This document shows, piece by piece, positions 17,754-20,897 of a stretch of DNA of 64,000 bases. How positions within the stretch are numbered: the first letter of the stretch is position 1; every line of letters starts with the position of its first letter. The position numbers and the translations under genes are program-made. The DNA lies in NCBI GenBank assembly GCA_022564055.1, contig JADFMD010000002.1:1-64000 (forward strand), written 5' to 3'. The notes below the pieces were generated by a model. The model was not told where the DNA came from and made no database searches. It saw only the letters and a list, made by a program, of their open reading frames with translations. This DNA is from Gemmatimonadota bacterium (GTDB taxonomy: Bacteria; Gemmatimonadota; Gemmatimonadetes; Longimicrobiales; Gaopeijiaceae).

Positions 17754-18404
17754 GTGTCTTTGAGGAATGGATTGGGGTGGGCACCGGCGTTTTTCGCGGG
17801 ATTTGCCGCGGGGGCGTCGGGAACCGTGGCCGTGGCTCTTCTGCTTTACTCCGGAGAGGGGCTGCTTCGATCGCTGACGCTGATCGTGGCGATCGAGCTG
17901 GGTGCGTTCGGTGTGGGCTTGGGTATGAGTGCGCCGCCGAAGGAGTGGAGCGACGCGGTGGAATCACTTAGGAGGCGCTGGCTGGTCGCACTCATGGCTT
18001 TTCTCGCTGCGGCCGGCTTCGCGCTCGCGTGGGCGTTCTTCGCGGGCTTCGGAGCGTCACCCATTTCACAAGCGCTTGGTCTCGCCTTGCTCGCGGGCCT
18101 TCCCCTGTATGCGGGGGGCCGTCTCTTGAGGGGCATAAGCACCGTGCGGATGATGGCGGGCCTGCCGGGTGACGGTGCGCTCGCATCCGTCGGCGCTGCC
18201 GCCGGCGTGTTGGTGACCGGCCTCGGTGCCCTCTCTGGCGTGGGCGTACCCTCATTCGCACTCTTTCTCCTCGTCATTCTTTCGGGGGCCGCACTTCTTC
18301 AGGGGTGGGTCCTGGTGCCCCTCGAAGAGAGTATCGCGGCGCTTGAGGTCGCCGAGCCCGACCCGGCGGATGGCGTTCAGGCGGCGGCGCCCAAAACGCC
18401 GTGA
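17754..18404 (+). CDS. Hypothetical multi-TM membrane protein
   Basis: LGWAPAFFAGFAAGASGTVAVALLL... repeated hydrophobic helices; GTG (or TTG 17760) start; TGA overlaps the next start. Confidence 0.7.
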   Translation: MSLRNGLGWAPAFFAGFAAGASGTVAVALLLYSGEGLLRSLTLIVAIELGAFGVGLGMSAPPKEWSDAVESLRRRWLVALMAFLAAAGFALAWAFFAGFGASPISQALGLALLAGLPLYAGGRLLRGISTVRMMAGLPGDGALASVGAAAGVLVTGLGALSGVGVPSFALFLLVILSGAALLQGWVLVPLEESIAALEVAEPDPADGVQAAAPKTP

Positions 18405-19480
18405 TCATCGCGCACTTATCAGATCTGCACCTCGGTTATCGGGCATTCGGACATATGGAGCAGGGCAGAAATGTCCGAGAAGCCGACGTCGCTCGTGCAT
18501 TTCACCAGGCGATCCAGAGGGTTCTCGAGATCGCACCGGCCGCCGTTCTCGTCGCGGGTGATGTGTTCGACCGGCCCGAACCGCCTCACTCCGCGCTCGT
18601 TGCGCTTGCCCAGGGGCTGCAGACCCTGAGGGAGGCTCTCCCCGATGTGCCCGTTCTGATGGCCGCGGGCGCCCGGGACACACCGCCCGGTCCTGCGGAT
18701 CCTGGTCCCCTCGGTGCCTTCGATACGTTGGCCGGCGTCGAGGCTGTGACGGCGACGACCCGGTCCGTGCACTACTCGAAGTTGAATCTGAACGTCGTCC
18801 TCGTTCCGCATCGATCCACGGTCCAAGGACCCCGGCCTGTGGTCGTACCGAACCCGGATGCGCGATGGAATGTACTCGTGGGGTATGGATCCGTGGACGA
18901 GGAGGCAGCTTCGCTACTCTCATTGGACTCGGGTGATTGGGATTACGTGGCGCTCGGCCACGAACATTTTCGACGCGAGGTGCTACCGGGTGTTCACTAC
19001 GCGGGTGCCCTCGAGCGTGTGGGAGCTACCCCTTGGGAAGAGGCCGCCGAGGAGAAGGGTTTCTTGACGTGCGATCTCGAGTCAGGCCAGACCCGCTTTC
19101 ACCCGATCCACGGTCGCCCGGTCGTATCGCTTGAACCGATCCCGTTCGAGGCGGATCGGCCCGAGCGCCTGCGGGAGCGCGTAATTGAGGTACTCGGCGA
19201 GGTGCCCGGCGGGATCGAAGAGAAGATCGTGCGGATTCGAATTCAGGGGCTCCCGCCAGGACAGCTGGACCTCCTCGAGGGGGTATTGCCTGAGTATCGG
19301 CGGCGGGCACTACACCTCGAGGTGCAGCTCGATGACGCGCCGCCCCTCTCTCTCTCTCAGGAGGTCAAGCCGTCCGTGCGAATGGCTTCCAGGCTGGTCG
19401 AGTGCCTTGCGGACCAGAGCGATAATTTTGACGCCTTGCTTGAGTTGGTGCAGGAATGTCTCCCGGAGCGTCGGGCGTAG
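18401..19480 (+). CDS. SbcD/Mre11-like metallophosphoesterase with degenerate active-site motifs
   Basis: IIAHLSDLHLGYRAF...AAVLVAGDVFDRPEPPHSAL...WDYVALGHEHF; GNHD position reads GARD; GTG start. Confidence 0.82.
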   Translation: MIIAHLSDLHLGYRAFGHMEQGRNVREADVARAFHQAIQRVLEIAPAAVLVAGDVFDRPEPPHSALVALAQGLQTLREALPDVPVLMAAGARDTPPGPADPGPLGAFDTLAGVEAVTATTRSVHYSKLNLNVVLVPHRSTVQGPRPVVVPNPDARWNVLVGYGSVDEEAASLLSLDSGDWDYVALGHEHFRREVLPGVHYAGALERVGATPWEEAAEEKGFLTCDLESGQTRFHPIHGRPVVSLEPIPFEADRPERLRERVIEVLGEVPGGIEEKIVRIRIQGLPPGQLDLLEGVLPEYRRRALHLEVQLDDAPPLSLSQEVKPSVRMASRLVECLADQSDNFDALLELVQECLPERRA

Positions 19481-19484
19481 TGTG

Positions 19485-20897
19485 GTGAGCGTGGACTCCG
19501 TCGCAACGGGTGCTGCAGGGGCGAAGGAGGGACCGCTCGATCTCCAGCTCGGTGCCGGCCTCACGGCTTTGGTCGGGGGGGACGGCCCCCTGCGTAGTGA
19601 GGTCATGGACCGGTTCGCTCGTCGTCTGGCCCAGGACGACGAACGCCTTCAGACGCTGATCGCCGGCCCGGGCACCGTCGGGCCCGCACATGCGTGGCGC
19701 CGCGCGGTGCGCATTCTGGCGCAGTGGACGGGCCTCGACGGCGTGGACAAAGAGATCTCGGCCGTGATCCACGGAGGTTCCCGAGCCGGCGGTGACTCAC
19801 TGTGGTCGGACTCGGGCGTGGAAGGGCTCCGCGGGCGGGTTCAGGAGTTGAGGCGGCTTCCGGAGGCACTTCGCGTCAAGGCCCGTGAGCTGAGGGCATT
19901 ACGTGCGGACGCCGTGGAAGTGGGCGGAGATCTCGAAGTCGCAAACATGGATTGGCTGCGGGAGCGACAGGATGCCGAGACGCATCTCCTCGCCTATCGC
20001 GATCGCGCGCGGGAGCTCAAGGTCCGCCTCCACCAGCTCGAGGAAGGAGGCAGCGATACGGCGTGCCCGACCTGCGACCGCGTGCTCAGCGAGAGATTCG
20101 AGTCTGTCCTGGAGGTGCTCCGTGAGGAGTGGGAGTCGGTGGTACAGGACGGGAGCTGGTGGAAGCGCCGGAAAGACCAGTTGGACTTGAAGCCCCCTCA
20201 TCTTCAGGACCTCGAAGGGAAATCCCTTCGGCTTCATGCCACGATCGAGGAGTCCACCGAAGAGGTTGAGCGGCTGAGGGCTCGCTTGCCGGAGCTGACC
20301 GAAGCGGAAGACACGCTTGCGATGGCCCAGGTAGGGGAGAGCCCGTCGAAGTCGGATGAGGGTGGGCGCGCCGGACGGCCTACGGACGAGCGGGATCTCC
20401 GTCGCCGCGCGTTGGAGGCTCTACGAAGAGAGCTTCTGTCGGACGCCTTTGAGGCGTTGACCGACCGGACTGGGCGCTACCTGAATCATTTGACAAGCGG
20501 CCGTGTGCTCGGGGTCGGCGTGACCGGCGATGGCGAGCCCACGATCGTTCGAGACGAGGGCGCTCGGAGAATCCAATCCGACGAGGAGGCGGCCGCGTAT
20601 CTGTTCGCCTTACGGCTCGCCCTTGTCGACCTGGCTGCCGGTTGTGGCGTACACGCCCCCGAGATCCTTCTGGGAGACACCTTCGATCGCCTCGAGCCCG
20701 ACGCCAAGTTGAGGGCGGTCGGCCTCCTTCGAACGCTGCTCGTCCGCGTGCCGAAGATTCTTCTCTTCTGCCGCGGTGACATCCTCGACGCAACACCCGA
20801 ACGGTTCGATTGGATCGTCGAATTGGGGGTCGATCGGCGTGGATTTCCGTACGCTCGAGTGCAGCGAAGCGGCGTGGGGAAGCTACGGATTCACTGA
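19485..20897 (+). CDS. Miniature SbcC/Rad50-like protein with zinc hook and degenerate nucleotide-binding motifs
   Basis: GLTALVGGDGPLRSEV (Walker A-like), coiled coil, ACPTCDRVL hook, YLFALRLALVDLAAGCGVHAPEILLGDTFDRLEPDAK; GTG start after the SbcD-like stop. Confidence 0.75.
   Translation: MSVDSVATGAAGAKEGPLDLQLGAGLTALVGGDGPLRSEVMDRFARRLAQDDERLQTLIAGPGTVGPAHAWRRAVRILAQWTGLDGVDKEISAVIHGGSRAGGDSLWSDSGVEGLRGRVQELRRLPEALRVKARELRALRADAVEVGGDLEVANMDWLRERQDAETHLLAYRDRARELKVRLHQLEEGGSDTACPTCDRVLSERFESVLEVLREEWESVVQDGSWWKRRKDQLDLKPPHLQDLEGKSLRLHATIEESTEEVERLRARLPELTEAEDTLAMAQVGESPSKSDEGGRAGRPTDERDLRRRALEALRRELLSDAFEALTDRTGRYLNHLTSGRVLGVGVTGDGEPTIVRDEGARRIQSDEEAAAYLFALRLALVDLAAGCGVHAPEILLGDTFDRLEPDAKLRAVGLLRTLLVRVPKILLFCRGDILDATPERFDWIVELGVDRRGFPYARVQRSGVGKLRIH

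Follow-up and report, generated by a model that had tools for sequence, protein, structure and literature searches.

A gene pair of the SbcCD (Mre11-Rad50) type that very probably represents a conserved non-catalytic derivative of this complex was identified in the window, that is, the whole stretch of 64,000 nucleotides analyzed here. The first gene encodes a degenerate SbcD/Mre11-fold protein, named SbcD' (P0001; 18401..19480, + strand, 359 aa, GTG start), and the second one a shortened degenerate SbcC/Rad50-fold protein, named SbcC' (P0002; 19485..20897, + strand, 470 aa, GTG start). As judged from sequence comparisons, the pair is a descendant of SbcCD that lacks the catalytic features of this group. 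It is the native SbcCD of the lineage, modified at its original locus, and with slightly better than even probability it works as a zinc-hook tether that is independent of nuclease activity and ATP; that it acts as a structural tether of DNA is about an even call. Together with an upstream gene for a transmembrane (TM) protein (17754..18404, + strand, about 216 aa), the two genes form a tightly packed trio on the + strand. The 4-bp overlap of the TM and SbcD' genes (GTGA at 18401-18404) and the 4-bp gap preceding the SbcC' gene (19481-19484), both reported in a preliminary description of this DNA, were verified in the sequence. The source genome is a 3.38-Mb assembly of 259 contigs that is 87% complete. 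In the following, f1 denotes the family of the window, and f2 and f3 are sister families of the same order.

The assignment to SbcCD is based on profile and structure comparisons. P0001 matched the Metallophos and SbcD/Mre11 models of Pfam and NCBIfam, the latter mostly in the N-terminal part and below the cut-offs, as well as Mre11 among PDB sequences, and the SbcD' family alignment (A4) matched Mre11 structures in a profile search with an E-value of about 1e-22. The AlphaFold2 model of P0001 (pLDDT 90.0) gave top Foldseek matches that were all Mre11 (5dny, 3av0 and 4tug). For P0002 alone, the Pfam search yielded no family of its own; the SbcC' family alignment (A5) matched Rad50 over the C-lobe with an E-value of about 2e-9, and the AlphaFold2 model (pLDDT 88.4) matched Rad50/SMC heads in Foldseek (3qkt, 7zr1 and 5xei). 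The operon thus combines a phosphoesterase fold of the Mre11 type with a protein of the Rad50 fold. Both the sequences and the AlphaFold2 model indicate that the antiparallel coiled coil of SbcC' carries a CxxC hook at its tip (hook and flanking coiled coil at 19896..20231, + strand, residues 138-249; CPTC at residues 194-197). The Pfam zinc-hook model does not match this hook and is uninformative for other hook proteins in the genome.

The residues of SbcD' were counted in 71 distinct proteins of the family with the numbering of P. furiosus Mre11, and the metal ligands were allotted to site 1 and site 2 by alignment and in accordance with Mre11 structures. The site-1 residues D8, H10, D49 and H208 are kept in 70, 69, 68 and 67 of the 71 proteins, respectively, all four of them together in 67, and they correspond to D8, H10, D54 and H189 in SbcD' of the window. 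N84 and H85 are kept in 0/71 proteins, H85 being replaced by Arg in 70/71 and by Ser in 1/71. D86 is kept in 70/71, H173 in 45/71 and H206 in 6/71, and the three site-2 residues occur together in 0/71, which bears out across the family the degenerate nuclease motif that the preliminary description had reported. Every scored residue is kept in 10/10 intact sister-family proteins of the same alignment. In the window itself, SDLHLG, GDVFDR and ALGHEH are present as described, with both His residues of ALGHEH remaining, GNHD reads GARD exactly at 18668..18679 (+ strand; Asn84 to Ala and catalytic His85 to Arg), and motif IV reads LVGYGSVD, so that three residues have been lost, namely the Asn, the catalytic His and the His of motif IV. 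His85 is essential in Mre11 (PMC4996933). The complete two-metal site with the catalytic His (GNHD and the His residues of motifs IV and V) is missing from SbcD'. By alignment, SbcD' is a protein that keeps the predicted metal site 1, has lost site 2 and the catalytic His, and carries a near-invariant Arg in place of the latter. The retained site 1 and this Arg suggest that the SbcD' pocket may still bind something phosphate-like; a retooled enzyme with one metal would likewise be compatible with the retained site-1 ligands and the invariant Arg/Asp.

In SbcC', all features of the preliminary description were recovered, namely the length of 470 aa, GGDGPLRS at the P-loop position (19575..19598, + strand, without Lys), the ACPTCDRV hook and EILLGDTFD at the Walker B position (LLGDTFD at 20667..20687, + strand, Asp-Thr replacing Asp-Glu). 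The signature position reads QSDEE, and SGGEE in the sister families. The degenerate state of the ATPase motifs extends well beyond the window, as a pattern search of 69 related loci detected none of the canonical motifs, neither a P-loop with the Walker A Lys nor a signature of the LSGGE type nor a Walker B with its Glu. The retention of the zinc hook is likewise general, since both cysteines of the CxxC are present in 69/69 loci with varying intervening residues (CRSC, CGRC, CANC and others). The distance from P-loop to hook is 375 residues in intact SbcC and 163 in SbcC' of the window, and that from hook to Walker B is 330 and 201 residues, respectively. In pairwise comparisons between f1 genera, SbcC' shows a mean identity of 59% in the hook, 23% in the P-loop region and 33% in the C-lobe, the respective values for intact SbcC being 52%, 54% and 79%. 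The evolutionary depth of the two sets may not be the same, but the reversed rank order within each set is independent of it. The aligned sequences thus indicate that conservation in SbcC' is inverted relative to intact SbcC, with the hook conserved best and the heads worst. A TrpTrp motif follows the hook, and the hook-flanking motif is largely common to SbcC' and intact SbcC.

With respect to the genomic context, the gene order sigma70 - RsgA - BtuDCF - secreted 336-aa protein - TM gene - SbcD - SbcC - DUF2723 - hydantoinase - TrpE is common, wholly or partly, to f1 genomes, in which the pair is degenerate, and to f2 and f3 genomes, in which SbcCD is intact wherever a pair was found and examined, with one partial exception (G135, see below). 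Since the degenerate pair occupies the slot of the intact SbcCD of f2 and f3, it is the orthologue of the native SbcCD, and in view of this synteny a paralogue that accompanies an intact native copy was rejected. Intact homologues in close relatives had been named in the preliminary description as a sign of recent decay, and every same-genus or same-family copy that was examined at the locus turned out to be degenerate; among the copies examined, intact ones were found in the sister families only. In SbcD trees computed after removal of the motif columns, the degenerate proteins are set apart from the rest by a branch, which has a support of 83 in one tree and no support of its own in the other, where the intact group is supported by 99, long branches being flagged. 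This placement, adjoining intact SbcCD, is consistent with a single conversion. The SbcD' gene was found in at least 90 of 116 f1 genomes, and all of the 69 named loci that were fetched (69/69) belong to Gemmatimonadota metagenome-assembled genomes (MAGs), some of them labelled Longimicrobiales or Gemmatimonadales. In the listed genomes of genus g11 of f1 (G013, G062, G079, G090 and others), no SbcD' was detected and an E. coli-type SbcD is present instead.

The dN/dS values within the genus of the window (80-86% identity), estimated by the Nei-Gojobori method, were 0.09-0.17 for SbcD', 0.11-0.15 for SbcC' and 0.07-0.15 for the neighbouring RsgA gene, and are approximate, as synonymous divergence is near saturation for some of the compared pairs. 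Within SbcC', the lowest values were obtained for the hook (0.04-0.10), those of the heads being 0.09-0.22, and no sign of relaxed constraint was seen in dN/dS of either gene in this genus. Maintenance of the pair by selection is thus supported by values of about 0.1 in both genes, and together with the family-wide conservation they rule out recent decay. Since the nuclease and ATPase motifs are gone and the hook is the most constrained part, dimerization and tethering would be the simplest surviving function. The hook of Rad50 has been described as a stable, constitutive dimerization interface that resembles the hinge of SMC proteins in this respect (PMC6969161).

The SbcD' and SbcC' coding regions lie in one open frame in 37 of the 69 loci (725-1183 codons from stop to stop), and no fewer than five changes between the fused and split states have to be assumed on the tree. 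The fusions are evidence that both proteins still act together. An apparent split of SbcD' in G042 was dismissed, the gap consisting of masked bases. In the genome G012 (JAHEKN010000015.1; L040:7201-7818, identical to L119), the slot contains a 206-aa ORF with hook and coiled coil only and, just upstream of it, an 84-aa coiled-coil ORF, with neither SbcD' nor heads; this single case from a low-coverage MAG may represent either a functional mini-hook or what is left of a lost complex. A slow decay of a dispensable operon might be read from such a solitary hook, from the strong divergence of the heads and from the loss of the locus in some genera, but we regard it as highly improbable, given the dN/dS values of both genes, the open frames in nearly all copies of independent assemblies, including the single-contig genomes G006, G040 and G043, the invariant CxxC and the near-invariant GxRD.

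In the partial exception in f3, G135 (L155/L173, G135:C53), the syntenic locus is occupied by an SbcD that contains GDRDTP and ALGHHP and adjoins a fully intact SbcC of 820 codons. The nuclease motif has been lost by the same His-to-Arg change and the ATPase has been kept, and in the SbcD tree this protein groups with intact proteins on a long branch. G135 may be either INTERMEDIATE or a parallel case, which means that nuclease loss preceded ATPase loss or that the His-to-Arg change arose twice; either way, there is a hint, short of proof, that the Arg is useful. An additional SbcCD-type pair of another lineage, in which P-loop and signature of SbcC are intact, was detected elsewhere in G135 (L164) and in the f1 genome G055 (L147:1800-5632). 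The change in G135 beside an intact SbcC speaks for the view that the one-metal site and the new Arg of SbcD' hydrolyse a different phosphoester, the hook being a mere scaffold. This view would also account for the site-1 ligands in 67/71 and the Arg in 70/71 proteins and for the good conservation of SbcD' itself (dN/dS of about 0.1). Nevertheless, it is quite unlikely in our estimation, as the catalytic acid and the second metal site are both gone, site-1 residues are also lost in four of the 71 members, and SbcD' has been dropped altogether in one genome.

Other Mre11-Rad50-like nucleases were found in the same genomes. The genome of the window contains at a separate locus a YhaO/YhaN-like pair with intact motifs (L065:3296-7347, G000:C126), in the YhaN-like protein of which no CxxC hook was seen; E. 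coli-type SbcCD was not found in this 87% complete assembly. An E. coli-type SbcD is present in 34 of the 116 f1 genomes, 20 of which also have SbcD', and an intact homologue is therefore neither required nor excluded by the degenerate pair. A mutual exclusion of the pair and E. coli-type SbcCD, considered for the first 39 genomes, was rejected, as 20/116 genomes have both. The coexistence with these homologues would fit a role of the degenerate complex as a regulator or decoy that binds to DNA ends or enters into mixed complexes and thereby restrains other Mre11-Rad50-like nucleases, and for inactivated but conserved paralogues of replication enzymes a function alongside an active copy has been proposed (PMC2527604). 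We consider this role unlikely, since the YhaN-like protein shows no CxxC hook for a hook-mediated mixed dimer, an E. coli-type SbcD is missing from most f1 genomes with SbcD', and the pair derives from the sole native copy and not from a duplicate.

Within f1, the pair is consistently accompanied by the upstream TM gene. This gene is short in the window, and its homologues in other members and in the sister families are longer, one of them with a sub-threshold spermidine-synthase-like domain that is missing in the TM protein of the window. The preliminary description had considered a membrane link through this protein; this proposal did not stand, as the same TM gene also adjoins intact SbcCD in the sister families, and membrane anchoring was rejected as a specific feature of the degenerate pair. 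The TM protein is probably a conserved neighbour and not a functional part of the complex. The constant neighbourhood, along with the conserved hook region and the subsequent TrpTrp motif that could form a binding surface, might also point to a scaffold off DNA, in which a zinc-hook dimer holds other proteins and is possibly placed at the membrane by the TM protein. Such a scaffold seems improbable, because neither the TM gene nor the hook-flanking motif, mostly common to intact SbcC, is specific to a new role.

Under the tether reading, the native SbcCD of the lineage would have been converted in place into a pseudoenzyme, the subunits of which, found as a single polypeptide at over half of the related loci, would still associate. 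SbcC' would dimerize by its Zn2+ hook on shortened arms and give rise to a (SbcD'-SbcC')2 tether that would neither cut DNA nor cycle ATP. The SbcD' pocket probably holds one metal ion at site 1 (D8, H10, D54 and H189), and the Arg at the place of the former catalytic His could grip a phosphate without hydrolysis. The tether may bridge or cap DNA, which the ancestry of the complex suggests as ligand, or may keep partner proteins on DNA. The most specific version, a Mre11-Rad50 complex devoid of nuclease and ATPase chemistry that serves as hook tether only and holds DNA-end phosphates uncut in a one-metal-plus-Arg pocket, is put forward tentatively and at somewhat less than even probability.

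A comparison with known systems delimits the pair further. With the intact SbcCD of f2 and f3 it shares the locus, the two-gene order, the folds and similar hook and hook-flanking sequences, whereas it lacks GNHD, the metal-site-2 residues, P-loop, signature and Walker B, its arms are much shorter and its two genes are often fused. The YhaO/YhaN-like pair likewise consists of a metallophosphoesterase and a large ATPase of the wider SbcCD group, but differs by its intact motifs, the lack of a visible CxxC hook, its separate locus and its own branch of the SbcD tree; a YhaO/YhaN-type identity of the degenerate pair was rejected, as the YhaO-like group is separate on the SbcD trees with a support of 100. 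Lamassu LmuB and other SMC-like proteins have the SMC/Rad50-type fold of P0002 and are in line with its Foldseek matches, and P0002 gave a weak PADLOC match to LmuB over the coiled coil (E=2e-5), P0001 giving no PADLOC match. A Lamassu or SMC-like defence system was dismissed in view of missing LmuA/LmuC partners, housekeeping neighbours and the lack of ATPase motifs in P0002. The B-subunits of eukaryotic replicative DNA polymerases have a calcineurin-like, Mre11-related phosphoesterase fold and are non-catalytic structural subunits (PMC4996933). They resemble SbcD' in the dead fold, but belong to a different complex without a Rad50-type partner and without a zinc hook. Inactivated archaeal family B DNA polymerases are widespread and conserved and are thought to stem from an ancient duplication (PMC2527604); in the present case, by contrast, the single native copy was changed at its original locus.

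Structural subunits with a dead phosphoesterase fold and conserved inactivated replication enzymes are accordingly already known. A doubly inactivated, hook-retaining SbcCD was not described in the literature searched, most subscription journals being outside our reach. As a practical consequence, a nuclease label assigned from the fold alone would be wrong for these genes. The fused proteins, with about 850 residues in a single chain, are well suited to structure determination and imaging. The separability of tethering from nuclease and ATPase activities in Mre11-Rad50 has so far mostly been addressed with engineered mutants. Evolution appears to have separated tethering from both chemistries across a bacterial family, in which the subunits are often fused, and if this is true, the pair would be a natural separation-of-function complex in which the hook is left with its structural role alone.
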